Virus record (IMG/VR): IMGVR_UViG_3300012358_000006
Coordinates: 1 to 29,082 of that record
Direction: 5' to 3' (one strand)
Source: a virus
Length of the DNA: 29,082 nt
Positions within the stretch are counted from its first letter, which is position 1. Each line of letters opens with the position of its first letter. The translations under genes were made by a program, and so were the position numbers. Shown in pieces: positions 729 to 22,094 of the stretch. The notes under the pieces are model-generated. The model worked only from the letters and a program-made list of their open reading frames with translations. It searched no databases and was not told where the DNA came from.

Positions 729-2107
729 CGTCGGTACTCTCCGAGGATGAGGTGGTCCTGTCCAAGGAAGAGTACTTCGACCTGACCGGATACACACCAC
801 ACCAAGGCCAACGGGTGATGCACTTCACTCCGGCCAGGTTCAAAATCGTTTCTTGCGGACGGCGATGGGGCAAGACGTTGTTCGGGGCGAAGGAAGCTGA
901 GCCTAACACGTTCGTCGCTTGCCCTATCACAGGTGAAGCACAACAAGGATGGATCATCGGTCCGCAGTACATGCACGCGGAGAAAGAATTCCGGATCGTT
1001 TACGATTCGCTCCGTAAGATGGGTGTGGACCGTGATTCCATCAAGTTCTTGAACAACGTAGAATCCGGTAACATGCACATCAAGACCAATTGGGGATTCG
1101 ATCTGCAATGCCGATCGGCAGCACACCCTGAAACCTTGGTTGGCGAAGGATTGAACTTCATTGTGATGGCCGAGGCCGGTCTGCAAAAACGGAGGACGTG
1201 GCAGTTCGTCCGACCGGCGTTGTCCGACCGTCGTGGTTGGGCCATCTTCACCGGGGTTCCTGAAGGGAAATCTGAACAATCGTTGCTGTACGCGTTGTAC
1301 CAGCGCGGGCAGTCGTCGCGTCCAGTGGACCGGGCATACAAGTCGTGGCGGATGCCATCGTGGACAAACACAATGGTGTTTCCCGGAGGCCGCAACGACC
1401 AGGAAATCTTGGACGCCGAAGAGGACTTGACCGAAGACGAATTCAATCGCCAATACGGTGCAGACTTCACCGAAAAAGTCGGTGCGGTCATGAAAGAATG
1501 GGACGACGATGTTCACCTTGGTGACTTCGATTACGTTCCGGCTTGGCCGTTGTACATGGCTGTTGACTACGGGTTCACCAACCCTTTTGTGGTGTTGTGG
1601 ATTCAAGAGAACCCCATCACAGGCGACCTCCGGGTGATCGGGGAACGTCGGTGGTACCAGGTGGACACCGAAGAGGTGTGTATCGACCTGTTGAATGACC
1701 ATTCGGGATTCGTGGCTGCATGTCGAGCCATCTACCCCGATCCGGCAGAACCGGACGACACGCGGACGATGGCGCGCAAGCTTCGGATTCCCACACGGAC
1801 GAACACCGGTGGTGAGTTGAAGATTCGTCTGGCATTGATCCGTCGTGTGTTGAAACTCCCTAAAGATGTGGCCATCGACCACCCTTCATACCGGCCCAAG
1901 TTGATGGTGGACCGGTCATGTCACGAGTTGGCTTGGGAAATGCGTGAGGGTTACCGGTGGCCTGAACATCGGTCTGAAGTGCGCAGTACATCGGAGAACC
2001 CGATCGACAAGAACAACCACGGTGTGGAGGCATTGGGTCGGTTCATGAAAGGCCGATACCGCACCGTCGTGCCTGGCCGAACCAACGTGACGAGTGCGAG
2101 GTGGTGA
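725..2107 (+). CDS. terL: terminase large subunit (DNA packaging ATPase/nuclease)
   Basis: This 460-residue protein is the motor that pumps DNA into the prohead and cuts the concatemer. The Walker A motif GRRWGKT lies at residues 45-51. A hydrophobic strand ending in an acidic residue (NFIVMAEAG, E150) fits Walker B plus the catalytic glutamate. The C-terminal RNase H-like nuclease domain begins with YMAVDYGF, whose D281 is the likely first metal ligand. The length is normal for a compact large terminase. The GTG start overlaps the stop of the previous gene, and the portal gene starts within a few bases of its end, the usual terminase-portal order. Identification is firm from motifs and context, but the packaging type (cos or headful) cannot be read from it. 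Confidence 0.95.
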   Translation: MTSVLSEDEVVLSKEEYFDLTGYTPHQGQRVMHFTPARFKIVSCGRRWGKTLFGAKEAEPNTFVACPITGEAQQGWIIGPQYMHAEKEFRIVYDSLRKMGVDRDSIKFLNNVESGNMHIKTNWGFDLQCRSAAHPETLVGEGLNFIVMAEAGLQKRRTWQFVRPALSDRRGWAIFTGVPEGKSEQSLLYALYQRGQSSRPVDRAYKSWRMPSWTNTMVFPGGRNDQEILDAEEDLTEDEFNRQYGADFTEKVGAVMKEWDDDVHLGDFDYVPAWPLYMAVDYGFTNPFVVLWIQENPITGDLRVIGERRWYQVDTEEVCIDLLNDHSGFVAACRAIYPDPAEPDDTRTMARKLRIPTRTNTGGELKIRLALIRRVLKLPKDVAIDHPSYRPKLMVDRSCHELAWEMREGYRWPEHRSEVRSTSENPIDKNNHGVEALGRFMKGRYRTVVPGRTNVTSARW

Positions 2108-2111
2108 AAGC

Positions 2112-3632
2112 GTGGCGACGAACGTCTTTACTCCGTACTCGACAGCAGCGGGGTTGTTCGGGCAGAAACCGGGATGGGTCACTGACGAACTGGATGTGAT
2201 GCGGATCCAGTCGTACCAGTTGTACGAGCAAATCTACTGGACTGTGCCGGACATTTTCAAGATTCAATTCAGAGGCACGAACGACAAGGCCATTTATCTT
2301 CCATCGGCTCGGACAGTGGTTGACACCACAGACCGGTACGCCGGGGCACAGTTCGCAATCAACCTCACTGACCGAGTGTCCGGTGCATCAGACTCGGCTG
2401 ATGTGGTGGCCGCTCGAGAAGTGCTCCGAGATTTGTTCGCACGCGAACGGTTCCGATCCAAGTTCGACGGTAACAAGCTGTACGGCATCATTCGTGGAGA
2501 CTGGGTGTGGCACATCACGGCCAATCCCAACAAGCCGCAGGGATCGCGGATCTCCATTGTGTCGATCGATCCGGCCATGTACTTTCCCGTCACGTCTGAT
2601 GACGACGTTGACGAAGTGATCGCGGTTCATCTGGCTGTCCAGATCTCGACACCCGATGGTGCCCGCATCCACCGGTTGACGTACCGCAAGGAACAATCAG
2701 CACCCGGGGTGTTCACCGGTCGGATCACGGTCGAGGAAGGATTGTTCAAACTCGACAAATGGGAGATGCCGGACACCAAACCGGATCGAGTCATTCAACA
2801 GCCGACTCAGCTTCCGGATTCCATCACGGCTATCCCGGTGTACCACGTGAAGAACTTTGAAGAGCCAGGCAACCCGTTCGGATCGTCGGACGTCCGGGGT
2901 TTCGAAGTCCTCATGGGGGCCATCAACCAGACGGTGTCCGACGAAGACCTGGCGTTGGCCCTCGAAGGCATCGGCATGTACGCCACAGATGCCCCAGAGC
3001 CCACGGACGATGATGGGGTGGTCGTGGGGTGGCGGTTGGGCCCCGGGCGCGTTGTGCACCATCCAGAGGGGTCTACGTTCAATCGTGTGGATGGCGTCAA
3101 ATCGTTCGGGCCGTACGGGGACCACTTCGACCGGTTGGTGTCGTCGCTTCGCCAGGCGGCAGCCACACCGGATGTCGCGATCGGCACAGTGAATGTCGAG
3201 ATCGCCCAGTCGGGTATCGCACTCGCTCTCCAGCTTTCACCGTTGGTCGCCAAGACGGAGAAAAAGAACCATCTGTTGATCGACGTGCACACTCAGATGT
3301 TCTTCGACATTTTGAACGGATGGTACCCGGCATACGAAGCCACATCGTTCGAGAACTTGCGGATCGAGGCAGCGTGTGGTTCGGCAGTTCCGGTCGATCG
3401 CGCCGAGCGATTCACTGAACTGAACGACATGTTGGATCGGAAGGTGATCGATCCGCAGTACTATCGTGACGAGGCGACAAAGCTCGGATACGTGTTCCCC
3501 TCCGACATCCAGAACCGGCTGGATGGCCAGGCTGAGAAGGATGCGGCCAACACCGCAGCGGCGTTCGGTGCGACTGCCCTTGCAGCCAACGCGAATGACA
3601 CCACACCCCCTGAGGGGAGTCCGACTCAATGA
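2112..3632 (+). CDS. portal protein
   Basis: A 506-residue protein in the standard position directly after the large terminase. Portal proteins form the dodecameric ring at the unique capsid vertex through which DNA enters and leaves. Portal-like features are the length, the N-terminal stretch DVMRIQSYQLYEQIYW, the central PVYHVKNFEEPGNPFGSSD region followed by a helix (VLMGAINQTVSDEDLALA), and an Ala-rich C-terminus (AEKDAANTAAAFGATALAA). GTG 2112 is preferred over GTG 2094 because GAGGTG sits eight bases ahead of it, leaving a four-base gap after the terminase. The 3' end overlaps the next gene by four bases (ATGA). Confidence 0.9.
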   Translation: MATNVFTPYSTAAGLFGQKPGWVTDELDVMRIQSYQLYEQIYWTVPDIFKIQFRGTNDKAIYLPSARTVVDTTDRYAGAQFAINLTDRVSGASDSADVVAAREVLRDLFARERFRSKFDGNKLYGIIRGDWVWHITANPNKPQGSRISIVSIDPAMYFPVTSDDDVDEVIAVHLAVQISTPDGARIHRLTYRKEQSAPGVFTGRITVEEGLFKLDKWEMPDTKPDRVIQQPTQLPDSITAIPVYHVKNFEEPGNPFGSSDVRGFEVLMGAINQTVSDEDLALALEGIGMYATDAPEPTDDDGVVVGWRLGPGRVVHHPEGSTFNRVDGVKSFGPYGDHFDRLVSSLRQAAATPDVAIGTVNVEIAQSGIALALQLSPLVAKTEKKNHLLIDVHTQMFFDILNGWYPAYEATSFENLRIEAACGSAVPVDRAERFTELNDMLDRKVIDPQYYRDEATKLGYVFPSDIQNRLDGQAEKDAANTAAAFGATALAANANDTTPPEGSPTQ

Positions 3633-5761
3633 CGATTTCAAAGATCGCAGTACATGGGTCGTTTGTCATTCCGTCAAGCGCCGGTGATATCTCGGCCGAG
3701 GGATGGGTGTCGTTCATCGCGCCGTCTGAGATCCGAGATCCGACATCGAACGTGATTCTGGTTCCGATCGAACAGCGATACCCGTTGGTGAATGGGGCGC
3801 TCAACGTCAACATCTACCCGACCAACCACCCGGACATGGCGCCTACCGGGTGGGCATACGCGGTCCGGTATCGGTTCTTCGCGCCTGGGTCGTCCACCGT
3901 GTATGGCCGGACATCGGACTTCAGCTTGGTCGTTCCTTACGACTGGGTCGGCACATTTGAGCTTGCGGATGTCGCTCCGTCCATCGCGGTCATTCCTCTG
4001 GTGTCATACGCAACGGCAAGTGATCTCAATGCATTGGAAGCCAGGGTAGCGACCCTCGAAGCGGGTGGAGGTGGCGGGGTGGCGGTCAATTCGGTATTCG
4101 GACGTACCGGTGATGTGGTGTCGGCTTCGGGCGATTACACCGGGAGTCAGGTAACCAACGCACCGGCTGGCAGTATTGCAGCGATCACGGTGCAAGGAGC
4201 GATCAACGAACTTGATTCCGAAAAGCTGAGTATTGCTACGGTTACCGCCAAAGGTGACTTGCTGGCTGCCACGGGTTCAGGCGTCATAGCCCGGGTTGGT
4301 GTGGGATCGGACGGGCAAGTCCTCAAAGCCAATTCCGGCGCATCCGCTGGGGTGTCATGGGGTGCCGGTGGGTCGACGTTCCAAGGAACCTGGGCAGCGT
4401 CCACGGTGTACGTTACCGGGGATCTCGTCACGTATGCCGGGGAACTGCTCATCGCTACGGCGAACCACACTTCGGGTGCTGGGTTCAGCCTCACGAACTG
4501 GACTGTCCTCAGTGGACGTCCTGGTGTCTACAACGTCAAGCTGTACGGCGCAAAAGGCGATGGTGCGACGGACGACACTGCGGCCATCAACGCAGCGATC
4601 ACTGCCGGGTTCAACGCGGGCACGTCGAATGGAACTTCATACGCCGAGATCATGTTCCCACCTGGTGAGTACGTGGTGTCCACGGCCACAACAAAAGGTG
4701 GGGCCACCCAAGGCAACGCGCAGATTCCCCTCCCGGTCGTCGCGAGCACGGCGGAGAAATTCACCCTGGTATTCTCCGGTGTGGTTGACTCCACAGCCTT
4801 CGTGCACTGGGAGCAAACGGTGGCTCAACGGAGTGGTACCGTCATCCGTTCTACGTTGACTGGCCTGGCGTTGGATGGAACGTGGGGTGCGCCTTCGGTC
4901 ATCGGTGGTCCGACCGTGGCGCAAGGTTCAGGCGTGTACAACAACATGAAGGTGGTGGTTCGAGGAATCACCATCATGGCGCCTTTCAATCCGGGCATCA
5001 TCGGACTCGATCTCAAGTTCTGTTCTCAAATGCACGTGGTGTCGTTGGCGTGTTTGGCCAATGCCCCGGCTGTCGGATCGCCATCAATCACCACACTGCC
5101 GACGAACGACCTCGGGATGGGATTGCGCGGCCCACAGAACGGCAACAACGACTGTTACATGATCGACGATTACGCCGTGGAGGGGTTTTACTACGGCATG
5201 CAATGGGGCGAGCATGTGGCCGCGTTGCGCATCGCTTCCGTGTATTGCCGGGTGGGCGTTTTCCTTGCCACAGGCGGGGGTTCGTACCACGGAGGAACGA
5301 TCGTGAACATGTCGGTCGAAGTTGCCGATGTCGCGATCCAGACAGCGGGTACTCCAGGATCGGCCTGGCCTGTGCATATAGCCCAGTTGGCTGTCGAGTC
5401 AGTGACCACGTCCGTGGATGACGGAAATGGCGTCCTGCACGGGATGATCTATTACACCGACACGTTGGACGCCGGTCCTTCGATGACCGGTGGGGCACAT
5501 GTGAAAATGATATGTGTCAGCCAGAAAGGCCAGCCGGGGACCAAGACCGCACCGGGCATCCCGTCATCTACCACACCGCTGGTGAACCCGTTCTGGCGGG
5601 ACTGCGCAGTGGTGGTGTCCGGGGGCACTGTGTCGGCCATCGCAGTTGATGGTGTCGCTACCGGGTACACCAACACTGGCCATACCGTGATTGTGCCTTC
5701 CGGAAAGTCGATCACGTTGACTTATTCGGTTACACCTTCATGGACGTGGACAGCGTTGTAA
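3629..5761 (+). CDS. tailspike-like protein with pectate-lyase fold domain
   Basis: This 710-residue protein looks modular. An N-terminal region of about 130 residues is followed by a short coiled coil (SDLNALEARVATLEAG) and a glycine linker. Next come tail-fibre-type segments (NSVFGRTGDVVSASGDYTG, then KGDLLAATGSGVIARVGVG) and a CBM5/12-like module near residues 250-290 (TWAASTVYVTGDLVTYAGEL). From about residue 300 the motif VKLYGAKGDGATDDTAAINA marks the start of a right-handed beta-helix domain of the pectate lyase 3 superfamily, used by many tailspikes to bind or cut surface polysaccharide. It starts in a four-base overlap with the portal. The place is odd: such proteins normally lie after the tape measure gene. 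Enzyme activity is inferred, not shown. Confidence 0.8.
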   Translation: MTISKIAVHGSFVIPSSAGDISAEGWVSFIAPSEIRDPTSNVILVPIEQRYPLVNGALNVNIYPTNHPDMAPTGWAYAVRYRFFAPGSSTVYGRTSDFSLVVPYDWVGTFELADVAPSIAVIPLVSYATASDLNALEARVATLEAGGGGGVAVNSVFGRTGDVVSASGDYTGSQVTNAPAGSIAAITVQGAINELDSEKLSIATVTAKGDLLAATGSGVIARVGVGSDGQVLKANSGASAGVSWGAGGSTFQGTWAASTVYVTGDLVTYAGELLIATANHTSGAGFSLTNWTVLSGRPGVYNVKLYGAKGDGATDDTAAINAAITAGFNAGTSNGTSYAEIMFPPGEYVVSTATTKGGATQGNAQIPLPVVASTAEKFTLVFSGVVDSTAFVHWEQTVAQRSGTVIRSTLTGLALDGTWGAPSVIGGPTVAQGSGVYNNMKVVVRGITIMAPFNPGIIGLDLKFCSQMHVVSLACLANAPAVGSPSITTLPTNDLGMGLRGPQNGNNDCYMIDDYAVEGFYYGMQWGEHVAALRIASVYCRVGVFLATGGGSYHGGTIVNMSVEVADVAIQTAGTPGSAWPVHIAQLAVESVTTSVDDGNGVLHGMIYYTDTLDAGPSMTGGAHVKMICVSQKGQPGTKTAPGIPSSTTPLVNPFWRDCAVVVSGGTVSAIAVDGVATGYTNTGHTVIVPSGKSITLTYSVTPSWTWTAL

Positions 5762-5781
5762 CCAAGCGGATCATGTGGCAT

Positions 5782-5804
5782 GGTGTTGGGGAACGAACAA
5801 CACC
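5782..5804 (+). repeat. 7-bp inverted repeat (hairpin) before the next start
   Basis: GGTGTTG (5782-5788) and CAACACC (5798-5804) form a perfect 7-bp stem with a nine-base loop, in the 59-base gap between the tailspike and the small acidic gene. There is no T-tract, so it is not a classical terminator. It may stabilise the mRNA end or affect translation of the next gene. Confidence 0.4.
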
Positions 5805-5820
5805 GATCCCAGGAGGGGAC

Positions 5821-5985
5821 ATGACCGACACCACGCTGCCGAACGTTCCGGTCGAAGGCGACGACGTTCCGCAGGCGGAGTACATCAGCACTGAGGACGT
5901 GGACGCGACCCACGCGGCAGAGGCCACGGACGAGGATGAGAGTCCGCTCGCGGACGACGTCTCCCCGGGCCACGACGCGTTCTGA
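5821..5985 (+). CDS. small acidic hypothetical protein (54 aa)
   Basis: ATG 5821 follows a near-perfect ribosome binding site (AGGAGGGG), which strongly supports this start and shows the gene is translated on its own. The 54-residue product is very acidic (many D and E, EDVDATHAAEATDEDESPLAD), has no hydrophobic segment and is probably disordered. An upstream in-frame ATG at 5740 lies inside the tailspike gene and lacks a good site. No family is recognised. It lies between the tailspike and MuF genes, immediately upstream of a large structured intergenic element. Confidence 0.7.
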   Translation: MTDTTLPNVPVEGDDVPQAEYISTEDVDATHAAEATDEDESPLADDVSPGHDAF

Positions 5986-6003
5986 TGGTGCGCGATAGCA
6001 TTT

Positions 6004-6100
6004 GGGACTAAACATCCCGTAAAGCCCCAGGGCCCGATCGCTCCCGTTCATCCCCATCCGGGAGAAATGTCTAGTCCCCCACTGGACGATCGGGCCCTGG
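6004..6100 (+). ncRNA. structured intergenic element, possible pseudoknot
   Basis: Two long complementary pairs interleave in this gap. CCAGGGCCCGATCG (6027-6040) pairs perfectly with CGATCGGGCCCTGG (6087-6100), a 14-bp stem. GGGACTAAACAT (6004-6015) pairs with ATGTCTAGTCCC (6067-6078) with one mismatch, and the second arm lies in the loop of the first stem, so both together make a pseudoknot. A further 6-bp hairpin, CTCCCG/CGGGAG (6041-6046 / 6059-6064), lies in the same loop and would compete with an extension of the outer pairing. No T-tract follows, so it is not a simple intrinsic terminator. Function is unknown: a regulatory RNA, mRNA-processing site or protein-binding element before the MuF gene are all possible. 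Confidence 0.5.
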
Positions 6101-6137
6101 TTGCAAGTCCGCATTTCATGTGGTCTGGGAGGTGTCG

Positions 6138-7076
6138 GTGGCATCCCCCAATCCGCAGAATGTTTACGGCAAGGTTCAACTGGCCTACGATGCCAAGCTG
6201 AATTCCATCCTGGAGCGAACCGCGCGGGACATCCAGTCACGCATTGCTCGGTTGCGTCCCGGTGTGGGAGGCGAGGTCCGTAAGGCACAGCTCAACTTGG
6301 TGTTGAACGAGATCCGGAACATCCAACAAGCCATGTGGGTGTCCAACGTCGGGCCGACCATCCAGCAAGGCAAACGTGCCGCTGCGAAGGCCGCTGAATC
6401 GGCCACAGAGGCGTTGGAACGGGTTTTGTACACCGCACTGCCCGAATCGGTGGCCGAGGCCGTCAGAGGCGGTCTGAGGACCACTGCGATGGCTGGTATC
6501 GAACGTGACCACGCACGGATACCCCGGGAGCTTTCCACACGGGTGTATCACGACTTCGTACTGACCAGCGGTCAGGTGGAGCGGACGATACGGTCTGGCT
6601 TGATAGCCGGACTGTCCGCGCGTGAGCTCGCGGCTGACGTATACCACTTCATCAGTCCGACCACGCCAGGCGGTGCGTCGTATGCTGCGATGCGCCTGGC
6701 TCGGACGGAAATCAACAACTCGTTCCATGAGCAGCAAAAGCTCGGTGGCCAGCGGCCCGGAGTCAAATCTGTGAAATGGAACCTGTCAGGTTCGCACGGG
6801 AAGCCGGATCTGTGCAACGTGTACGCGTCGCAAGATACCGACCACCTGGGTGGGGGGAAGTACAAACCGGGCAACGTTCCGGACAAACCACACCCTCAGT
6901 GCTTGTGTTACATGACGTACGACACCATGTCTCCTGAGGAATTTGCGAAGGGGATTGAGCAAGGGAAATTTGACAAAGAACTGGATGCTCGGATCAAGGC
7001 GAATCTGGATCGACTCGGGGTCAAGCGGATCCCCCCGGTGACCGTCAAGAAAACCAAAGCACCAGTGGCAAACTGA
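6138..7076 (+). CDS. MuF-like head morphogenesis protein
   Basis: A 312-residue protein of the Mu gpF / SPP1 gp7 family, minor head proteins that associate with the portal during prohead assembly. The C-terminal half shows the family signature: YAAMRLARTEINNSFHEQQ, then VKWNLSGSHGKPDLCNVYAS, then PHPQCLCYMTYDTMSPEEF, with conserved Cys and His residues. The N-terminal half is helical and alanine-rich. GTG 6138 is chosen over GTG 6120 and 6132 because GGGAGG ends five bases ahead of it. Its place between portal and scaffold is as expected, except that it is separated from the portal by the inserted tailspike and acidic genes. A hairpin follows its stop. Confidence 0.88.
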   Translation: MASPNPQNVYGKVQLAYDAKLNSILERTARDIQSRIARLRPGVGGEVRKAQLNLVLNEIRNIQQAMWVSNVGPTIQQGKRAAAKAAESATEALERVLYTALPESVAEAVRGGLRTTAMAGIERDHARIPRELSTRVYHDFVLTSGQVERTIRSGLIAGLSARELAADVYHFISPTTPGGASYAAMRLARTEINNSFHEQQKLGGQRPGVKSVKWNLSGSHGKPDLCNVYASQDTDHLGGGKYKPGNVPDKPHPQCLCYMTYDTMSPEEFAKGIEQGKFDKELDARIKANLDRLGVKRIPPVTVKKTKAPVAN

Positions 7077-8507: not shown

Positions 8508-8519
8508 GGAGGGTTGGAA

Positions 8520-9791
8520 TTGAACACGAAAGCTTCAACCCTCTGGCGTCCGGGTACCGGGTACGACCTGGTTTTCCCGGCCGGTGGGTACACGCAGAAC
8601 CCGCGTTCTCTGAAGCGTGGGATGGACGAACTGGTTGACCTCCGGGCCCTGGGCATCGTGCCCGGTATTTCCGGTGGTGCTCCGGTTCACGGCACGCACA
8701 CGGTCAGCGACGTCCTGACGCAACTCGCGGACGGCACCCCACTCAACGACGTGTGGGACACGTTCATGGCGTTGCTCAACGCCACGAACAGTTCCAGGCA
8801 AGCGCTCATCCAATTCCTCACCTACGCGGTTGGCCAGCCCACGGAGACCGTGGCACAGGTTGGCGATGGTGTGGATTTCGAGGACGCCACGGAGTTCGGT
8901 GTTCCGGTCGCCGGTCGTGTGCTTCCGAACTACTTCCAACTGGGGTACTCCTTCAAGTGGTATGACCTCGCGGGTCGGTACACGTGGCAGTACCTCAGCG
9001 AGGCGACGCAGCAAATGGTCGACTCGCTGGCCAACGCGGCAGTGGAAGCGTACTGGCGCAAGCTCATGGTCGAGATGATGAAGGCGTTGTTCTCGAACGT
9101 CAACACCACCGCGACCATCAAGGGGAACAACTACACGGTGTATCGGTTCTACAACGCGGATGGTACCGTTCCCCCGACGTACAAGACGAACACGTTCACG
9201 GGTTCCCACACCCACTACGTCCGTTCCGGTGCGGCTACGGTCGATTCCGGTGACCTGGACGAAATCGCCAACGACTTCGACATGCACGGGTACACCCAAC
9301 TACTCGGGTACACCCGGATCGTCATGGTGAACAAGGCCGAAGGCGATGTCATTCGGACGTTCAAGGCTGTGCAGAACGGTGGCACGGCCAAGTGGGATTT
9401 CCTCCCGGCGACCAATCAGCCGGGGACGTTCGTCAACCAGACCCAGATCGTGATGGGCCAGGGTCCGCCTGCCGGATCGCTCCGGGGTCTGACGGTCATC
9501 GGTTCGTACGGGATGCTCCTGATCGTACAGGACGACTGGTTCCCGGCAGGGTACATCGTCGGTGTCGCCACGGGTGGCGAGAACAACCTCACCAACCCGT
9601 TGGGTCTCCGGGAACACGCGAACGCCAACCTCCGGGGTCTGCGACTCGTCAAGGGTCGGACGCCGGATTACCCGCTGATCGATGCGTACTGGATGGCCGG
9701 CTTCGGCTTCGGCACCCGTCAGCGTGGCGGGGCATACGTCATGCAGATCGCTACGGCTGGTTCGTACGCCCCTCCGGCAGCGTACAGCTAA
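8520..9791 (+). CDS. major capsid protein
   Basis: This 423-residue protein is the most likely shell subunit: right size and position, preceded by a strong AAGGAGG site (8506-8512) suited to high expression. TTG 8520 is preferred to TTG 8514 because spacing to that site is seven bases rather than one. The N-terminus (NTKASTLWRPGTGYDLVFPAGG), the ALIQFLTYAVGQPTETV segment, the long helix ending in YWRKLMVEMMKALFSN and the C-terminal YWMAGFGFGTRQRGGAYVMQ fit an HK97-fold capsid protein. Codons are more uniformly GC-ending than in neighbouring genes, as expected of a highly expressed gene. No cleavage site for a delta domain is evident. Confidence 0.88.
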   Translation: MNTKASTLWRPGTGYDLVFPAGGYTQNPRSLKRGMDELVDLRALGIVPGISGGAPVHGTHTVSDVLTQLADGTPLNDVWDTFMALLNATNSSRQALIQFLTYAVGQPTETVAQVGDGVDFEDATEFGVPVAGRVLPNYFQLGYSFKWYDLAGRYTWQYLSEATQQMVDSLANAAVEAYWRKLMVEMMKALFSNVNTTATIKGNNYTVYRFYNADGTVPPTYKTNTFTGSHTHYVRSGAATVDSGDLDEIANDFDMHGYTQLLGYTRIVMVNKAEGDVIRTFKAVQNGGTAKWDFLPATNQPGTFVNQTQIVMGQGPPAGSLRGLTVIGSYGMLLIVQDDWFPAGYIVGVATGGENNLTNPLGLREHANANLRGLRLVKGRTPDYPLIDAYWMAGFGFGTRQRGGAYVMQIATAGSYAPPAAYS

Positions 9792-13188: not shown

Positions 13189-13568
13189 CCGATTTCTCCG
13201 CCAACGTTCAGAAACCCGGACTTACTGGTATCGCCCCGACCTACAACGCGGTTACGGCTGCGGACAAGTTCACGGCGATTCCAAACGCGCGGTACATGCT
13301 CCACTACAAGAACGGTGCAACCGCGCAGGCCACCGGTGGATCTCCCAACAAGATCACGGATCCGACCACACCGATCCCGGGCAGTTCGTCGGCGTCGGCA
13401 GGATTCGCGGATGCGGTAACCCAAGCATCACCGGGTATGACCGCCACTTCCGAGTTCGTCGTGTGGATCGACAACTCCACACGGTTCCGTGATGCTACAG
13501 GATTCATCAACATGGTTCACCCCGGAACGTTGACCACGGTCACCGTGGCCATCTTCGGGCCGTTCTGA
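13185..13568 (+). CDS. tail-associated hypothetical protein
   Basis: A 127-residue protein, ATGA-coupled to the major tail protein. It is rich in Thr, Ala and Pro with several strands (GIAPTYNAVTAADKFTAIPN, ATSEFVVWIDNSTRFRDATG, LTTVTVAIFGPF). The character is that of a small beta-sandwich found after the tube protein in several actinophages. It may decorate the tail tube. No defined family is recognised. Confidence 0.65.
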   Translation: MTDFSANVQKPGLTGIAPTYNAVTAADKFTAIPNARYMLHYKNGATAQATGGSPNKITDPTTPIPGSSSASAGFADAVTQASPGMTATSEFVVWIDNSTRFRDATGFINMVHPGTLTTVTVAIFGPF

Positions 13569-13599
13569 TCCATCGACAACGGGTTTTAGGAGCACTGGG

Positions 13600-14190
13600 A
13601 TGCCACCCATCAAAAACACCTGGGGCCAGAATGACCCCGAAGGCACCATCCGGGTAATCACCACACCGAGCGGGAGCCAATGCTCTGCCGAACGTGTCGG
13701 CATGACTGGTCTGGTCCGAGCCGGTGTGCTCACCGAAGGCGACACGCTGACTGATCTCGTGGATAAGAAACACGTTCGCCGAGTTCGTGGGGGGAAGACC
13801 GCCGATCACGAACAGATCGACGTTATGTCTTTGGCTCGGGACCCGGAAGCCCTCGGACGCGTGGTCATGCTTGTTGACCGGGTGATGCCGTTCGTGGTCA
13901 AAGATCCCGTAGTGCGTTTGCATTTCGTGGAATTCACCGAACGTGCGCCGGACGGGGCGATGACCCGACGCCTGACCGACGAGGAACGGGCCACTGAAAT
14001 CGAGATCAGTGGATCGTGCATCTGGACCGATCAGATTCCTCTCGAAGACAAAATGTTCATCTTCAACTGGGCGGTGGGAGGTTCGGCCGACGCCGAGCGA
14101 TTTCTGTCACAATCCGAGGGTGCTGTGGCAGATGTGGCAGATGGCAAGGGCGTATCACGTCCGCCCAAGCGAACTACTCGCGCTAAGTAA
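13600..14190 (+). CDS. tail assembly chaperone, short product (gpG-like)
   Basis: A 196-residue protein upstream of the tape measure gene, the place of the tail assembly chaperone pair. ATG 13600 has TAGGAG seven bases upstream. The product contains helices such as LARDPEALGRVVMLVDRVM and DEERATEIEISGSC and ends in a basic tail (RPPKRTTRAK). Near the 3' end a tandem repeat GTGGCAGAT (14125-14133, 14134-14142) encodes VAD twice. The second chaperone domain is read in a different frame that overlaps the 3' end. Chaperones bind the tape measure during tail assembly and are absent from the virion. Confidence 0.82.
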   Translation: MPPIKNTWGQNDPEGTIRVITTPSGSQCSAERVGMTGLVRAGVLTEGDTLTDLVDKKHVRRVRGGKTADHEQIDVMSLARDPEALGRVVMLVDRVMPFVVKDPVVRLHFVEFTERAPDGAMTRRLTDEERATEIEISGSCIWTDQIPLEDKMFIFNWAVGGSADAERFLSQSEGAVADVADGKGVSRPPKRTTRAK

Positions 14191-14443
14191 AGATTCATAC
14201 CTGTCGTTCTCAGTGGACCGTGCGGTGTGGTTGTTCGGCCGGTCCGTGGAATATGACATGGATCAAGCTGAGGCTGCACTTCCGGAAAAAGCCGATCGGG
14301 CACGACGCACTGCCGCGCGTACTGCGGTGTTTGACGCATACATGCATTCCGGGGATGAGTCGTCACGGGCTGCACCAGTTCAAAAGGGACGGTTCGCCGA
14401 TCCCATGGTTGCAATCAAGGCGAGGAATCAATCCGGGAGGTAG
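13600..14443 (+). CDS. tail assembly chaperone, frameshifted product (gpGT-like)
   Basis: The T domain (ARAYHVRPSELLALSKDSY to the TAG at 14441-14443) is in the frame one base ahead of the first chaperone frame, with no good ribosome site of its own. Siphophages normally make it as a fusion by programmed frameshifting, most often -1. Here the required change is +1 (or -2). A +1 slip at CCC-A (14164-14167) would give 189 residues of the first frame followed by SELLALSK and 91 residues in total from the second, about 280 aa. Homologous G-T fusions support the biology. The exact site is inferred. Confidence 0.65.
14161..14168 (+). other. candidate +1 frameshift site
   Basis: In the first chaperone frame the codons are CCG CCC AAG. 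Proline tRNA on CCC can re-pair one base forward on CCA, after which AGC GAA CTA CTC continues the T domain. A CCC-type site is a known +1 slippage context in some phage tail chaperones. No canonical -1 heptamer would give the observed frame. Confidence 0.4.
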
Positions 14444-14449
14444 GTGCAG

Positions 14450-17122
14450 ATGGCTGGCAACTCCACCCTGGGGACGATCCGGGGTAAGATTCAAATCGAC
14501 TACGATGGTGCCGGGGTTGCACGAGCCGTCAGCGATCAAAACAAGCTGAAGGCGTCTGGCGGATCAACGTCCACGGCATTGAAGACGGTCAGTACAGCTG
14601 CGCTTGGTGCTGGGCTGGCCATCGCGGGTGGATTTGCTGTCGCCATCAATGCTGCGGCTGATTTCGAAAAAGGCCTGTCCAACATCAAGGCTGTTACCGG
14701 TGCGACAGCCAACGAGATGGAAGCGTTGCGGAAGAAAGCTCTCCAGCTTGGAGCCGATACGAAGTTCAGTGCTGGTGAAGCCGCACAGGCCATGGAAGAA
14801 TTGGCCAAGGCCGGCATTTCGACCACTGACATCCTGAACGGTGCTGCGGATGCGACAGTGGCCTTGGCGGCTGCCGGGGACATCGCATTGCCCGAAGCGG
14901 CGACTATCGCAGCCAATGCGATGAACCAGTTTGGGTTGGCGGCTAAAGAACTTCCCAAGGTTGCCGATCTGATCGCTGGCGCGGCCAACGCATCGGCCAT
15001 CGACGTGCACCAGTTCGGATTCTCGCTGTCACAGGTTGGTGCGGTTTCTCACCTTGCCGGTATCAGCTTCCGGGATACGGCTACGGCAATCGCCTTGCTC
15101 GGTAACGCTGGCATCGTCGGATCTGATGCCGGAACGTCATTGAAGACAACTCTACAAAACCTGATTCCAACGACCAAGACGCAAATCGCATTGGCTCGGG
15201 AACTGGGCATCATCACATCCGATGGGGCCAACCGTTTCTTCGACGCGACCGGCAAAGCCAAGTCGTTGGCCGAAATTAGCCAGGTGTTGCAGGACGCAAC
15301 GAAAAACTTGACCAAGGAACAAAAGCTGGCAGCGTTGTCAACGTTGTTCGGGTCCGATGCGATTCGGGCGGCTGCGGTACTGGCAGACAATGGCGCTGCC
15401 GGTTTCAACAACATGGCGTCCGCGATGGACAAGGTCAAGGCGGCCGACGTTGCAGCCACCAAGATGGACAACTTCAAAGGTTCCCTTGAACAGTTGAAGG
15501 GTTCTCTAGAAACCTTGGGCATCATCGTGGGTTCCGCGTTGTTGCCTCGGTTGCGATCGGTCATCGACACCTTCACCAAGTGGGCCAACGCGTTCTCCAA
15601 TCTCTCACCCCACACCCAAAAGACCATTGTGACCATCGTCGGAATCGCAGGTGCGATCCTGATTTTCGTCGGTGTGGTGGGGAAGATCATTGTCGCGATC
15701 AACGCATTCCGGGTGGCCTGGGTTGGTCTCAACCTGTCGTTCATCGCCACACCCATTGGTGCCATCATCACGGCGATCGTGATTCTCATCGGCGTGATCA
15801 TTTATCTGGCGTTGAAGACCAAGTTCTTTGAAACGATTTGGGGAGCTGTCTGGTCATTCCTGAAAACGATCGGAGCGTGGTTCGCCGGACCGTTCGCGAA
15901 TTTCTTCGTGTCGTTGTGGAACAAGATTGTATCGATCTTCACAGCGATTGCGAATTTCTTCGTATCGATCTGGAACTTCATCGTCGGGTTGTTCACGTTC
16001 TACTTCAACATCATCAAAACCATATTCAACTTCTTCGCTCCGCTGGTGCAAGCGGTGTTCGGCCTGATCGTGTCGATCATCCGCCTGGCGTTCTCGATCA
16101 TAGGCGCGATCATCGCGGTAGGCGTGGCGTTGTGGAAAGCATTGATCCAGCCAGTTCTGGACTTCATTTGGGGATACATCCAGTTCGTCCTCAACACGAT
16201 CGTGTCAGCCTGGAACGCGGCATGGAACTTCGTGTCATCGGTCATCCAGGCGGTGTGGGGATTCATCGGCCCGTACGTGATCGCCGCTGTCCAAGCGATA
16301 TACAACTTCATGGTGCCGATCATCAATGCGATCGTGAACTTCTTGACCGGAGCATGGAACTTTATCAAGGACACATCAACGTCGGTCTGGAACGCGATTT
16401 CAGGGTTCTTCGTCGGGTTGTGGAACTTCATCGTTGGATTGTTCGTAGGTGCGGTCAACAGGGTCATTGCCATCATCAATGGCGTGAAGACGGTGGTCGA
16501 TCGGATCAGGCAATTCTTCGATGGGTTGAAGAATGCCGCTTCCGGTGGTGTGGGATCGTTGATCTCGTTCGTGGCTGCGATCCCCGGGCGGATCCTGTCG
16601 GCACTGGGCAACCTCGGATCGTCGTTGGTGCAAAAGGGCCGAGATCTGATCCAGGGGTTCATCAACGGCATTGCCGGGATGGCCGGGCGTTTGCGGTCTG
16701 CCATCATCAGCTTGCTGCCTGGACCGTTGCGGTCATTCGCCAACTCGTTGGGCCTGGCGTCTCCATCCAAATTGTTCCGGCAGTGGGGCGTGTTCACGGT
16801 TCAAGGGTTCATCAACGGCCTGGTGGCGATGCAGTCCCGTTTGCAAGCCGCCATGAACGCCGTAGCCGGCTCAATCGCCGATCCGGGGGTGTTGGGTGCA
16901 ACCGTGGACGTTCGGGGCTCTGCGGCCACCTCAGGTACCTCTGCGGCGCCTCCCGCACCAACGGTCAACGTACGTCCGCAAGTGGTAGTCGTAGCCGACC
17001 TTGGGAACGGCGTGCGTGAGGTTGTTCGCCATACCGTGGCCGAGGAACCAGAGCTGGTCGCATCGTCCAGTGCCAAGGGAACCGAATACCGTGGGTTCTT
17101 GTCACCAGGGAGGAGTAAGTGA
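14450..17122 (+). CDS. tape measure protein
   Basis: At 890 residues this is the tail length ruler and DNA-ejection protein. The N-terminal region matches the TP901-type tape measure core (AADFEKGLSNIKAVTGATAN, then LGADTKFSAGEAAQAMEELA and AANAMNQFGLAAKELPKVAD). Residues about 390-670 are strongly hydrophobic with repeated Trp/Phe-rich segments such as NFFVSIWNFIVGLF and GFFVGLWNFIVGLF. The C-terminus has small-residue and Ser/Pro-rich stretches. By the usual 1.5 angstrom per residue rule the tail would be about 130 nm. ATG 14450 follows GGGAGG (14435-14440) at nine bases, better than GTG 14444. Its stop overlaps the next start by one base. Confidence 0.93.
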   Translation: MAGNSTLGTIRGKIQIDYDGAGVARAVSDQNKLKASGGSTSTALKTVSTAALGAGLAIAGGFAVAINAAADFEKGLSNIKAVTGATANEMEALRKKALQLGADTKFSAGEAAQAMEELAKAGISTTDILNGAADATVALAAAGDIALPEAATIAANAMNQFGLAAKELPKVADLIAGAANASAIDVHQFGFSLSQVGAVSHLAGISFRDTATAIALLGNAGIVGSDAGTSLKTTLQNLIPTTKTQIALARELGIITSDGANRFFDATGKAKSLAEISQVLQDATKNLTKEQKLAALSTLFGSDAIRAAAVLADNGAAGFNNMASAMDKVKAADVAATKMDNFKGSLEQLKGSLETLGIIVGSALLPRLRSVIDTFTKWANAFSNLSPHTQKTIVTIVGIAGAILIFVGVVGKIIVAINAFRVAWVGLNLSFIATPIGAIITAIVILIGVIIYLALKTKFFETIWGAVWSFLKTIGAWFAGPFANFFVSLWNKIVSIFTAIANFFVSIWNFIVGLFTFYFNIIKTIFNFFAPLVQAVFGLIVSIIRLAFSIIGAIIAVGVALWKALIQPVLDFIWGYIQFVLNTIVSAWNAAWNFVSSVIQAVWGFIGPYVIAAVQAIYNFMVPIINAIVNFLTGAWNFIKDTSTSVWNAISGFFVGLWNFIVGLFVGAVNRVIAIINGVKTVVDRIRQFFDGLKNAASGGVGSLISFVAAIPGRILSALGNLGSSLVQKGRDLIQGFINGIAGMAGRLRSAIISLLPGPLRSFANSLGLASPSKLFRQWGVFTVQGFINGLVAMQSRLQAAMNAVAGSIADPGVLGATVDVRGSAATSGTSAAPPAPTVNVRPQVVVVADLGNGVREVVRHTVAEEPELVASSSAKGTEYRGFLSPGRSK

Positions 17123-18009
17123 TGGATGCGGCAATGTATTTCGGTCGCCCTGGGGCATTGACCAAGTTGTATGACCCGACCGGAGGAATGCTCGCCACAC
17201 GGGACATCGGGACCACCACCTTCCAAACCGGGTCTGGTGGCGTGCGAGTGCAAAAAGGATTGAACGGTGTCCGGCAGTACGTGCTCAACTATGGAGCACT
17301 GGGTCGGGCATCGTTTGATTACCTCGCACAGTTCCATCAAGGACACATGGGTGTCGGGCCGTTTGTGTTTCTCGATCCCGGACGCCGGAACCTGTTGACA
17401 ACTAACCAGTCATCGAGTACGAGCGTGACCAATGACACGCGGGACTTCACGGTGTCGGGTGCTGGGGGAACCATCACGTCTGATGCGACCCTCACGACTC
17501 CGTTGCCCCGCACGTTGAAATGGTCTTTCGGGACCACCACACCAGCGGCGGCTGGCCTGTCTCTCGATAAGCCGTCGTCGGTGTGGCCTGGTATTCCTGT
17601 GACATCGCGTCCGTATACGTTCTGGTGCATGGTGGTCGGTGGGCCGGTCAATCTTCAGCTCTCGTTGAAATGGATGAACCTCGCCGGGGGGACTATCAGC
17701 ACATCGCTGTCTTCAATGGTGACGACATCGATTACCAACTGGCAGATGGTGTCGTTGCGTGCGTTGACCGTGCCCGTTGGTGCCGTGTGGGTGCAACCTG
17801 GTGTTGCGCCGGACGTCTCAACGATTGCATCTGGTGAGTCGTTGTTTTTCTCATCGTTCATGTTGAACGAAGGGGACAACCCTGATGACCGATGGGCGCC
17901 TGGCACCGGAGTGTATCCCGTTCAGGTGATGTCTGTTCCTGAGAGATATGGATTCGCGGAACCGGGCATGATGGTCAGTCCGTCGTTGGTGCTTCAGGAG
18001 GTGCGTTAA
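17122..18009 (+). CDS. distal tail-type minor tail protein with carbohydrate-binding-like domain
   Basis: A 295-residue protein immediately after the tape measure, the place of the distal tail protein. Residues 1-85 look like a Dit-type N-terminal domain (VRVQKGLNGVRQYVLNYGAL, GPFVFLDPGRRNLLT). The rest resembles a galactose-binding jelly roll (RPYTFWCMVVGGPVNLQLSL, GESLFFSSFMLNEGDNPDDRW), such as those that bind cell-wall glycans. The GGAGG site precedes ATG 17122, which overlaps the tape measure stop. The next gene overlaps by one base. It probably links the tail tube to the tail tip proteins. Confidence 0.78.
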   Translation: MDAAMYFGRPGALTKLYDPTGGMLATRDIGTTTFQTGSGGVRVQKGLNGVRQYVLNYGALGRASFDYLAQFHQGHMGVGPFVFLDPGRRNLLTTNQSSSTSVTNDTRDFTVSGAGGTITSDATLTTPLPRTLKWSFGTTTPAAAGLSLDKPSSVWPGIPVTSRPYTFWCMVVGGPVNLQLSLKWMNLAGGTISTSLSSMVTTSITNWQMVSLRALTVPVGAVWVQPGVAPDVSTIASGESLFFSSFMLNEGDNPDDRWAPGTGVYPVQVMSVPERYGFAEPGMMVSPSLVLQEVR

Positions 18010-21000
18010 TGCCCACCTGGGACGAACTTGATAGCGTGTCGTGGGATGTTCTGTACACGTACGACGATCCGCTACGGGACTACCGGCTGAATGTGGCGTA
18101 TGGCCTGGGAACGGTCACTCGCGAAGGGCCAACTGTCGCGGTGGATTGGTCCGGGGGCGGGTTCATCATCGACACCCTCGATGCCCCGTTTGCCAAGGAC
18201 AGATTCGATCGGGGATCGGCGTTCGCTGACACACAGCTCGTGACCAATACCGGGTTCGAGACCAACACTGCGACGTGGACTGGTGTGGGTGGGACATTGG
18301 CCCAGTCGAGCACGTGGAAGAAATCTGGATCGTTTTCTGCCCGTCTTACACCCGATGGGATATCGGTTGACAACATCATCTTGAATGATGAGATCCAGAT
18401 CGTGGCTGGTCGATGGTACAAGGTTGAGGGATGGTTGTTGAGCACGAACGGTGTTACGACAGCCGGAGTGTCCGTCAACTGGTATGACGCTGCGCATGCG
18501 TTTCTGTCGTTTTCCTCCCAACTGGCATCTCTCACAGCCAACGTTGAAAGGCAATGGTCGTACTACGCACAAGCACCAGTGAATGCTGCATACGCCCGAG
18601 TTCATCCGATCCAAACGGGCACTCAACCGGCAGGCAATCTGTTCTATGCCGATGACGTCAAATTCACCGGTGCTCCGGTGGGATCCATCGGTTGGACAAG
18701 CACATCGTTCGGCGACCCATGGACCACGACCGGGTCTGTTTTCTCGGTCAGTGACACCGAAGGATGGATCAGTTCTACCACACGAAACTCAATGCGGTCC
18801 GCCATCCTCGCCGGTGTGGTGAACAACGACTATGACGTCATGGCCAAGATACGGGTGCCATCGTTCGCGTTGACCGACAAGATCTCTGTATACCTGTTCG
18901 TTCGGTACCAAGACGCAAACAGCCATTGGCGGTACCGATTCGACTTCAATATTGACCAGATCATTGGATGGGGAGTCGAACAGGTCGTTGGTGGTGTGGT
19001 CACCGAGATATGGGCTGGGCTGGTGCCTTTGACCACTCACACCATAACCGACTGGTACTGGGTCCGTGCCCAAGGAAATGGGTCGAACATCCGGCACAAA
19101 TTGTGGAAGGATGGGGTCGCACAGCCGGACGATCCGCTGATCCTTGGGATCACAGACACGACGTACAACGGGTTCCCTGGGGCGATCGGCCTTGGCGTGG
19201 TGGTGGCCTCGGCAAACACGACTACATTGCCAGTCAATGTCGAGGTTGGACAGTTCTGGGCCGGTGCAAACGAACTGCTCGACAACGGCAATTCATCGGT
19301 CATCAAGTCGTTGGACGACGGGATGCCCCAAGGCGCCACCGATACGACCAACCTGGGCATTGGTGAGGCATCCGCTGCATTGACTTCGCCGATCGGGTCT
19401 CGGGCATCTGTGTATTGGTCGACGTTCCGCAATGACCAGCCGTATTCCGACATCGATCGGGACGTCCCCGGTGTGGCTATTTCGTCTGGTGCTGTGACGA
19501 GTGATGGTGTGCGCAATGTCCGGATGTTCACCGGGCAGATGGCAGATGTCGTTGTCACCGATGAAGATGTGACGATGAAGGCCGTCAGCCGTAACCGGTT
19601 GCGGATGTCTGTACCAGTGCAACCTCCAGCCGTGCATGGGTATTACGAAGGTGGCGAAGCGACATGGGCCATCGGGTACGCGTTGTTCAAGGCCGGATTG
19701 TACGTGGCTCCTCCGCCGATTCCGGGGTGTCGGTTCTACCAGCCGATGAGCGGGACATTGCACGTTTACATCCCTGACACCAACAACAAGCCGTTCATGT
19801 GTTCAATGGTGGTCTATCAAAGCCCATCCCTTCAGGTGTTCGGTATACCGTCGTTTGTGGACGGACCTTTTCCTGGTACGGCAGCACCAGATGTCCGCTT
19901 GGACACCACTGCGGCACGTCGTGTGGATGGCTATGTTCCAAACACATCATTGGCGCCTGGGGATGATTTCTGGTCTCAAACGGCGGCACAGGGGCGGATC
20001 GAATATTGGATCCGAGGCGATCCGGTGGATGTCGCCGGATCGATGAACCCCACTGAATCCGTGGTCGGTAGACTGATCATGTTCAATCCGAGCGTGTCTC
20101 GATATATCCAACTCGGTGTTGGTACCGCCACTCGATACCCGTCACTCAGTATCAGCGATGGCACCAATTCGCTATTGGCCACCCACACCACGCCGTTGCC
20201 GACTGACGGAAAATGGCATTTCCTTGCGGCCTCTTGGGATCTTCCCAACAACTCGTTGTGTCTCGCCATTGATGGCGTAACGCGATCATATCTGGCAGCA
20301 CCATTGAGTCAAGCCGCCCTTCCTGTGACAGACGACATACAACCTCCCGCCGTTAGTTCCAATGTCCCAATTGCAGAGGTGCGAGTCACATCTGGGCCTC
20401 TGGCGTCTAACAAACACTCGGCGTGGGTGCGGGACATCCCATGGTCGCCTGATGTGGTGATGCGTCGATCGTTTCTCACCACACCGGGGATCGCTGAGCC
20501 AGCACCAGTCGAGGCGTATGCTCTGATCAGCCGATATGCGCAGGCGGAGTTGGCACGAACAGGATTCGATGACCAGGATCGATTTCAATACCTTCCACTG
20601 TCGTATTTCGGGGAGGCCGCTCAACAACTGGTGGTCGAATCGCTGTCGACAACGACCAACCTGGGACGGGATTTCAAACCGGTCCGAGAGGTCAACCGGA
20701 CATACAACTTTGTCACTGTGAAGTACAAGCAAACCGAGGTTCAAGAGGTATTCGTCAAGGTGTATGAGAGTTCAAACCTCATTGCCTTGAACCCGGGAAC
20801 GACGGTTCTCGAATTGGCGACGAACAAACCGGCTGTTGAAGTGCGAAACTCCAATGCGCCTTTCACGGTGTTGGATGGTTCGACATTGGCTGCGTCTCCG
20901 CCATCGGATTCAAACGCCATCAACTACATCACGGCGAACACCTCGATAGATGGGTCGGGGACGTATGCCACTTCGGCAAACCTGATAGTCACGATCACGG

Positions 21001-21491
21001 CGTGGGATCCTGGTTCTGTCACGTTGTCAATTCTGAACATCTCCGGAAGTATTCTGTACGTCAGCAATAACGTCAACCTTCCGGCATTGGGGGTCGCTGC
21101 GAAGGCATTGACTGCGGTTGATGCTACGGTTACTGCGCAGAACAACGCATCGATCGTACAACGTGGACCTCGGTTGCTGGAAGCCGATATGCCAGCGATC
21201 ACGAATAACATCGATGCCCTTCGGGTAGCCAATGAGTTGGTTGCTCGATTGGGGTTTCCTCGGACAACGTTCACGTCTACCGCGTTTGGGGATCCTCGTC
21301 GGAACCCTACCCAACTCGTGAACGTATCCGATCCAGACAAGACCAACCTGTCTGGAACGTTCCGGATCACCGGAGTGAGTAACACCCAACGACAGGAAGA
21401 TCTCGACCAACGGATATCCGGAGAACAGGCATGGCCGGTGTTCGTGTGGGGCGTCAGCAATTGGGGCGAAGCCGTATGGGGAGAGGATTAG
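18009..21491 (+). CDS. large minor tail protein (tail tip, glycan-binding domains)
   Basis: At 1160 residues this is the largest gene here and a tail-tip hub candidate. From the N-terminus: a short unknown region; a CBM-like jelly roll from about 74 (VTNTGFETNTATWTGVGG); a concanavalin-like region at about 230-420 (YLFVRYQDANSHWRYRFDFN); a middle region of tail-associated character (about 430-620); a LamG-like segment at about 660-760 (DGKWHFLAASWDLPNNSL); and a C-terminal strand-rich domain ending in a Trp-rich tail (VFVWGVSNWGEAVWGED). ATG 18009 overlaps the preceding stop by one base. Several glycan-binding-like domains in one chain suggest receptor recognition at the cell wall. Domain borders are approximate and fold assignments are by eye. 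Confidence 0.78.
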   Translation: MPTWDELDSVSWDVLYTYDDPLRDYRLNVAYGLGTVTREGPTVAVDWSGGGFIIDTLDAPFAKDRFDRGSAFADTQLVTNTGFETNTATWTGVGGTLAQSSTWKKSGSFSARLTPDGISVDNIILNDEIQIVAGRWYKVEGWLLSTNGVTTAGVSVNWYDAAHAFLSFSSQLASLTANVERQWSYYAQAPVNAAYARVHPIQTGTQPAGNLFYADDVKFTGAPVGSIGWTSTSFGDPWTTTGSVFSVSDTEGWISSTTRNSMRSAILAGVVNNDYDVMAKIRVPSFALTDKISVYLFVRYQDANSHWRYRFDFNIDQIIGWGVEQVVGGVVTEIWAGLVPLTTHTITDWYWVRAQGNGSNIRHKLWKDGVAQPDDPLILGITDTTYNGFPGAIGLGVVVASANTTTLPVNVEVGQFWAGANELLDNGNSSVIKSLDDGMPQGATDTTNLGIGEASAALTSPIGSRASVYWSTFRNDQPYSDIDRDVPGVAISSGAVTSDGVRNVRMFTGQMADVVVTDEDVTMKAVSRNRLRMSVPVQPPAVHGYYEGGEATWAIGYALFKAGLYVAPPPIPGCRFYQPMSGTLHVYIPDTNNKPFMCSMVVYQSPSLQVFGIPSFVDGPFPGTAAPDVRLDTTAARRVDGYVPNTSLAPGDDFWSQTAAQGRIEYWIRGDPVDVAGSMNPTESVVGRLIMFNPSVSRYIQLGVGTATRYPSLSISDGTNSLLATHTTPLPTDGKWHFLAASWDLPNNSLCLAIDGVTRSYLAAPLSQAALPVTDDIQPPAVSSNVPIAEVRVTSGPLASNKHSAWVRDIPWSPDVVMRRSFLTTPGIAEPAPVEAYALISRYAQAELARTGFDDQDRFQYLPLSYFGEAAQQLVVESLSTTTNLGRDFKPVREVNRTYNFVTVKYKQTEVQEVFVKVYESSNLIALNPGTTVLELATNKPAVEVRNSNAPFTVLDGSTLAASPPSDSNAINYITANTSIDGSGTYATSANLIVTITAWDPGSVTLSILNISGSILYVSNNVNLPALGVAAKALTAVDATVTAQNNASIVQRGPRLLEADMPAITNNIDALRVANELVARLGFPRTTFTSTAFGDPRRNPTQLVNVSDPDKTNLSGTFRITGVSNTQRQEDLDQRISGEQAWPVFVWGVSNWGEAVWGED

Positions 21492-22094
21492 ATGGCAACA
21501 ACCACAACCCCGGTTCTCGGCTTGGTGAAACCCACACCAGGAACCGCTGAGCCATATAGCCGGGCAACTGAGAATGCGAATCTGGATGCGATCGACTCCG
21601 CCGTCGGAACGAAAACGTCCAAGTTCACCACAACTACGGTGGGCAATACGACAACCGAGACGTCGGTCATGTCGGTGTCCATTCCGGCCAACCCCCCGCA
21701 GGGCTCGATGTACCACATGCGGGTGTGGGGCACGTATGACAACGTAGCGTCGGCCACCAACTTCACGGTTCGGGTGAAGATAGGTGGATCGCAGTTGACA
21801 GCGGTCACAGTGAATACTCCGGCATCCGCACAGACGTTCAGTGGACTGTCCATCAACTTCGATGTCGTGGTAGCCACCACTGGAGCAGCCGGTACTTGGC
21901 GTGGTGAGTTGTGGGGCATCAAATCTGACAGTGCATCGGGTACGGGTCCACTGTTGGCCATTCCTGGTTCAGCCTTGACGAAGGATCAAACCGTCGCCAA
22001 CAACATGGAGATAACCATTCAATGGGCAGTCGCCAATGCTTCAAACGTCGTGCGTATTGACGGCGGTATCCACCGGCGACTGACTAATTCATAG
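21492..22094 (+). CDS. minor tail protein, possible receptor-binding domain
   Basis: A 200-residue protein whose ATG follows the preceding stop directly, with a GGGGAGAGG site. The first 45 residues (LGLVKPTPGTAEPYSRATEN, then ANLDAIDSAVGT) look like a short attachment helix found at the start of tail fibre proteins. The remainder is strand-rich (MRVWGTYDNVASATNFTVRV, LSINFDVVVATTGAAGTWRG) and could form a small jelly roll. It sits in the tail-tip group, so host binding is a reasonable inference. Confidence 0.7.
   Translation: MATTTTPVLGLVKPTPGTAEPYSRATENANLDAIDSAVGTKTSKFTTTTVGNTTTETSVMSVSIPANPPQGSMYHMRVWGTYDNVASATNFTVRVKIGGSQLTAVTVNTPASAQTFSGLSINFDVVVATTGAAGTWRGELWGIKSDSASGTGPLLAIPGSALTKDQTVANNMEITIQWAVANASNVVRIDGGIHRRLTNS

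Follow-up and report, generated by a model that had tools for sequence, protein, structure and literature searches.

Studies of host range in tailed phages usually look to the genes that follow the tape measure. Displaced tail genes are on record: they lie upstream of the terminase in Arthrobacter cluster AQ (PMC5513430), mycobacteriophage cluster S has them in its right arm (PMC9872701), and cluster O carries other genes between portal and protease (PMC4351075). Among tail fibres proper, phiC31 gp49, TG1 gp18, Vash gp18, Lilbooboo gp18 and SoJo gp21 begin with an N-terminal domain of about 120 residues that is followed by a fibre shaft, which is collagen-like in phiC31 gp49 and SoJo gp21; their genes sit at the end of the tail module. 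Here we analyse IMG/VR record IMGVR_UViG_3300012358_000006, positions 1 to 29,082 (the window, a 29-kb fragment record of an uncultured siphovirus), in which a tailspike/fibre-like gene of 710 codons (3629..5761, + strand), the spike, is set between the genes for the portal and the MuF-like minor head protein. The spike has an N-terminal domain homologous to that of the phiC31-type fibres, and the slot that it occupies belongs to its phage clade and changes its content from phage to phage. Clusters S and AQ resemble the window in having tail genes outside the tail module, but there the displaced genes are found with non-structural genes or ahead of the terminase, not between portal and MuF. 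Displaced tail genes are thus known; what is new is a tail-fibre-type gene kept in a lineage-specific slot of the head module. We found no paper on an exchangeable host-recognition slot beside MuF in the limited open-access literature covered.

Residues 1 to 130 of the spike (3629..4018, + strand) are predicted to form a beta-sandwich anchor of the phiC31 gp49 tail-fibre type. AlphaFold returned a predicted local distance difference test (pLDDT) score of 77 and a predicted template-modelling (pTM) score of 0.70 for this segment, and the same fold is present in the full-length model. A tblastn search with the spike N-terminus matched the fibres of phiC31 (gp49), TG1, Vash, Lilbooboo and SoJo. 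Profiles of the domain were built without the window sequence to avoid circularity, and 500 shuffles of the N-terminus served as control. The profile of five Streptomyces phage tail-fibre N-termini alone matched the window spike with E 7e-8, that of four IMG/VR relatives (L067, L084, L096 and L099) alone with E 5.5e-6, and the combined profile of all nine with E 8e-14; none of the 500 shuffled sequences was matched by the anchor profiles. The domain was found on no other window protein, and the anchor profile had no match among PDB sequences even at E 10. A sequence-only reading of the window had held these residues to be unlike known fibre segments, which does not stand: they are homologous to the fibre N-termini of phiC31, TG1, Vash and SoJo as well as to those of the relatives' fibres. 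phiC31, SoJo, Vash, Lilbooboo and TG1 carry the domain at the start of their final tail-module gene, which adjoins the endolysin gene, whereas the window spike lies between portal and MuF and carries a CBM5/12-like module and a beta-helix motif in place of a collagen-like shaft. A Pfam scan of the spike gave PF12708 and CBM_5_12 and no collagen repeat. The spike thus has the gp49-type anchor but is not a full-length member of that fibre type.

Within the superfamily to which the window belongs, the domain heads fibres at three positions. It is found between portal and MuF in the window and in contig L013, between MuF and scaffold in L067, L084, L096, L098 and L099, and upstream of terL in L088, L090, Shrew (gp43) and Huwbert (gp32); L134 and L138 gave a weak anchor match only. 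The fibres of L067, L084, L096 and L099 share both the window-type N-terminal domain and a head-module location with the spike, although their genes lie between MuF and scaffold, unlike that of the window. A CBM5/12-like match is present in the fibres of L067 and L099; no beta-helix motif was detected in these two.

A scan with a portal profile gave 80 relatives, of which 58, after dereplication at 95%, have both portal and MuF. The interval between the two genes is below 100 bp in 31 of these 58 and above 500 bp in 17. The expectation that portal and MuF are normally adjacent therefore holds for about half of the relatives. In the portal tree the window, L066, L079 and L081 form one clade (support 100/99), and all four have a cassette after the portal gene (the L081 contig stops before MuF). 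Their sister, L080, has a 0.66-kb gap with a non-fibre open reading frame (ORF). A second clade (100/99) consists of L067, L084, L096 and L099, with fibres in the MuF-scaffold slot. Since the occupied slots fall by portal clade, the position of the slot is passed on within a clade and varies from one clade to another, and its content changes within a position. Classes of slot content were assigned by hand from ORFs and family matches. In L066, L079 and L081 the cassette consists of a phrog_1084 protein of 112-114 residues followed by a phrog_644 protein of 140-212 residues, to which L066 and L079, whose contigs are long enough, add a distal protein of 409-560 residues. These cassette proteins are unrelated to the window spike, so that one place holds non-homologous surface proteins in the window, L066, L079 and L081. 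Kin of the phrog_644 slot protein are encoded within the tail modules of the Gordonia phages Sixama (gp104) and Orchid (gp37). We also note that gp6 of the satellite phage MiniFlayer (L169, 5186-5620), which adjoins its major capsid gene, is kin (E 3e-28) of the phrog_644 slot protein of L079. A likeness between the L079 slot protein and an L080 protein encoded upstream of terL (E 1.7e-17) proved to lie in low-complexity repeats and was set aside as evidence. Between MuF and scaffold, L127 and L133 encode proteins that are fibre-like by sequence alone, with no family matched.

A second set of slot genes is found in Gordonia cluster DV, where at least 27 listed records have genes right after the portal gene with about 100 N-terminal residues in common and distal parts that vary (esterase, lipase, 'minor tail', 'tail fiber'; cf. 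PMC11385102). Among four that were compared this N-terminus is 43-75% identical while the remainder is swapped. The DoobyDoo gp4 esterase, Sadboi gp4 and gp5, and DaviePasture gp4 occupy the same slot as the window spike in phages with homologous portal and capsid, and they agree with the slot idea in joining a constant N-terminus to a swapped distal enzyme or fibre. They differ in that their anchor is of the phrog_13286 type, unlike that of the window, and several more genes precede MuF. The suggestion that the spike gene is an exchangeable receptor or depolymerase module is thus borne out by different surface proteins within the window's clade and by another set in DV. Gene-order comparison makes the slot an ordinary lineage trait, as the sequence-only reading had allowed; the gene inside it is not, and differs from phage to phage.

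We consider it probable that the spike is an exchangeable, displaced tail-fibre/tailspike gene in a head-module slot and serves as an accessory receptor-binding spike, probably attached to the tail. The N-terminal beta-sandwich anchor of the protein would be followed by a short coiled coil, a shaft, a carbohydrate-binding module and a beta-helix, the last predicted to bind and probably cleave a polysaccharide of the host surface. It would most likely dock on the virion tail by its N-terminal domain, as phiC31 gp49-type fibres do, and would act alongside the fibre genes in their usual location behind Tal. The slot is a trait of the window's phage clade, its contents being replaced wholesale between relatives, and the spike gene would be read with the head operon through its overlapping start codon.

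Where the spike attaches was weighed from gene placement, homology and fold. A head or neck fibre, sitting near the portal and neck or on the capsid with the gene's place reflecting co-assembly with the head, had been proposed from the sequence; the comparisons do not support it and we regard it as unlikely, retaining it as a rival. Several observations nevertheless weigh against tail attachment and the wider reading of the spike given above. Fibre-type genes occur next to portal, MuF or scaffold again and again among the relatives, a siting that would also fit attachment at the neck. The cyanophage A-1(L) does bear neck fibres, on a pentadecameric neck ring where their N-terminal 125 residues dock (PMC10966104), and the weak fold matches of the predicted anchor include the A-1(L) neck-fibre anchor gp82N (8keg_a, prob 0.97, E 0.057) as well as the DEV collar (9cod); for that reason the predicted fold cannot tell tail from neck. 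Dit and Tal are not detectably common to the window and phiC31, so no common docking partner was identified, and among the virion proteins compared only the tape measure is clearly shared by the two. phiC31 gp49 is itself annotated merely as a putative tail fibre. Further along the protein, the predicted model of residues 301-640 falls below pLDDT 50, too low for the beta-helix fold to count as confidently modelled.

In favour of the tail, the best PDB fold match of the predicted anchor, itself weak (best E 2.6e-3), is the A-1(L) tail fibre (8kec_b), which scores better than gp82N; Bxb1 tail-tip chains are among the next matches, and most of the named viral matches are tail fibres of actinophages. 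Profiles of the window portal and MuF found nothing convincing in phiC31, and no MuF-like gene is listed among the phiC31 head genes. The anchor domain therefore need not dock on MuF, since phiC31-type phages, which have no detectable portal or MuF kin, carry it on fibres encoded at the 3' end of the tail module. It is also found well upstream of terL in relatives. Proximity of genes is moreover no guide to attachment, because the A-1(L) neck-fibre genes (gp80-82) are numbered far from its neck genes (gp5 and gp7). As the best-placed anchor homologues end tail modules, phiC31 has no detectable portal or MuF kin and the fold search ranks a tail fibre first, we favour the tail and estimate from homology and predicted structure that attachment there is roughly two to three times likelier than at the neck or head. 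We also think it unlikely that, in phages of the superfamily, glycan-active fibres sit on the neck or head vertex by means of a tail-fibre-type beta-sandwich anchor; if they did, this would explain why fibre genes gather round portal, MuF and scaffold rather than after Tal, and would alter the view of where such fibres are borne in siphoviruses.

Two further explanations concern the gene's place and not the attachment site. The spike could be a foreign tailspike gained recently and once, by this phage alone, without any standing slot. Apart from the second contig L013, the patterns used brought up no homologue of the beta-helix region in IMG/VR, a search of bacterial and archaeal genomes gave none either, and the distal part of the spike is private to this virus in the sets searched, as such a gain would predict. 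The slot is however occupied in all three nearest relatives, and the N-terminal domain is common within the superfamily. GC content and third-position GC (GC3) of the spike gene (0.59/0.68) match those of portal (0.58/0.71) and MuF (0.59/0.69), and base composition, compared with these two neighbours, does not point to a recent foreign source. The clade pattern already tells against a single gain, which is improbable. Because relatives in this branch keep exchangeable host-recognition genes there, the locus appears to be not a one-off insertion but a swap slot whose gene bears an ordinary tail-fibre-type anchor.

The other explanation gives the position a non-virion role, in which a small ORF and a stem-loop ahead of MuF would act as promoter or attenuator and set the level of MuF and scaffold, the spike being tolerated. 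The two elements noted in the sequence-only reading were both recovered. The ORF (5821..5985, + strand) encodes 54 residues with 16 Asp/Glu and no Lys/Arg, behind an AGGAGG Shine-Dalgarno sequence; L066 and L079 have different small acidic ORFs between cassette and MuF, too short for a homology claim. Between this ORF and MuF lies a perfect 14-bp inverted repeat (6027..6100, arms 6027-6040 and 6087-6100) with two inner hairpins, and the segment 5983-6125 has a folding energy of -61 kcal/mol (z = -4.3), which none of 200 shuffles reached. So strong a stem-loop between spike and MuF would suit a regulatory element. It was however found in none of the other fetched loci, being private to this virus among them; positions 5700-6200 have no Rfam match, and the occupied slots of L066 and L079 do without it. 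We therefore think such a non-virion role of the position very improbable. The stem-loop was also considered as the end of a mobile element and dropped, since apart from the arms themselves the window has no further copy of it and the relatives have none.

The preferred reading, a displaced and exchangeable tail-fibre-type gene, implies that this actinophage superfamily (clusters such as DV, EF, R and U, and many uncultured relatives) also places exchangeable host-recognition genes within or next to the head genes, at three alternative positions. Annotation and host-range studies confined to the tail module will miss these genes.

Beyond the anchor the spike has several further parts, and its full-length structure prediction is confident for residues 1-120 only. 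Residues 130-145 (4016..4063, + strand), with LNALEARVATLEAGGGGG in their sequence, form a short helix, a probable trimeric coiled coil, which leads into a Gly-rich linker; the helix is present in the predicted model at modest confidence and shows a heptad pattern. Fibre shaft repeats follow (residues 153-252; 4085..4384, + strand; phrog_5596), a widespread segment and the main one common to about 50 IMG/VR contigs. A beta-helix and a carbohydrate-binding module had been proposed from the sequence, and family matches agree. Residues 254-285 (4388..4483, + strand) make up a CBM5/12-like module (PF02839, CBM_5_12, E 1e-5), whose 25.7 bits fall slightly under the Pfam cut-off of 26.2. The pectate-lyase-like beta-helix region spans residues 301-639 (4529..5545, + strand); its motif is at the start only, residues 301-354 matching Pect-lyase_RHGA_epim (PF12708) with E 6e-12. 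The PDB kin 5m5z and 3eqn align over residues 295-361 only, the opening motif of the region, so that a substrate, and catalysis itself, can only be called putative. Frankenweenie gp167, a minor tail protein, is alike within the beta-helix region (28.6% identity over spike residues 337-607), and the tailspike of Dickeya phage RC-2014 in the C-terminal 71 residues only, so that each matches a different part of the spike. This C-terminal domain (residues 640-710; 5546..5758, + strand) is common to Dickeya phage tailspikes (46.5% identity over 71 residues, E 2e-6).

The 710-residue gene is a real ORF whose flanks are both family-matched. Upstream is the 512-residue portal protein (2094..3632, + strand; phrog_64, E 1e-33), downstream the MuF-like protein of 318 residues (6120..7076, + strand; phrog_17987, E 2e-40, and phrog_25879, E 3e-34), families labelled 'head maturation protease' (phrog_17987) and 'head morphogenesis' (phrog_25879 and phrog_1657). 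The spike ATG overlaps the portal stop codon as ATGA (3629-3632), with GGGGAG about 10 nt upstream, and the spike is accordingly predicted to be translationally coupled to the portal. L013 (7.6 kb) repeats the gene order and junctions with 12 base differences over an overlap of about 6.8 kb, which argues against an assembly artefact. The window runs terL (725-2107), portal, spike, acidic ORF, stem-loop, MuF, scaffold, decoration protein and major capsid (8514-9791); neck genes, major tail protein, chaperone, tape measure (14444-17122), Dit-like (17119-18009) and Tal-like (18009-21491) genes follow, and then fibre tips, endolysin and holin, assigned by position and sequence. A fibre-like protein of 200 residues (21492..22094, + strand) is encoded immediately behind the Tal-like gene, where tail-tip genes usually lie, and has homologues at the equivalent place in L066 (E 5e-54) and L079 (E 5e-62).

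Portal homologues were found in 152 phage records, with 33-38% identity to the window among the matches listed, and the portal and capsid kin in named phages are almost all actinophages. The named-phage records comprise 63 from Mycobacterium, 46 from Gordonia and 38 from Microbacterium, with a few from Curtobacterium, Micrococcus, Nocardia and Arthrobacter. The superfamily thus takes in SEA-PHAGES clusters DV, EF, R, U and others, and the Xenia2 announcement gives AC, AE, D, DG, DV, GG, EF, H, U and R as having the same portal and capsid phams (PMC11385102).

Other proteins occupy the head-module intervals of some relatives. By eye, a fibre gene of L070 (16565-17725), between capsid and neck genes, has a C-terminal domain in common with the L067 fibre (13331-14809) and a different N-terminus, a further sign of shuffling of anchors and tips. 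Very basic proteins fill the portal-MuF interval in L069 (2241-3428), L070 (11680-12606), L117 (10432-11634) and L120 (11629-13074); they bear the motif GRxLSxATRxKISxxLKGNKNA and are possibly internal DNA-binding head proteins. The Gordonia phages LittleFella and DoobyDoo likewise have basic proteins there. Small proteins that by eye are of JAB/MPN-like metalloprotease type precede MuF in L123 (5014-5352), L150 (3379-3783), L008 (3802-4197) and L003 (6411-6800), and are annotated 'tail protein' or 'metalloprotease' in relatives; the window has none. C-terminal effector domains are a known theme in MuF proteins. The MuF proteins of the closest relatives have 555-569 residues (L066, 13747-15414; L079, 14597-16306), against 318 in the window, whose MuF is without the papain-fold glutamine deamidase domain (Gln_amidase, PF15644, E 1e-11) in which that of L066 ends; the C-terminus of L079 MuF looks similar to that of L066.

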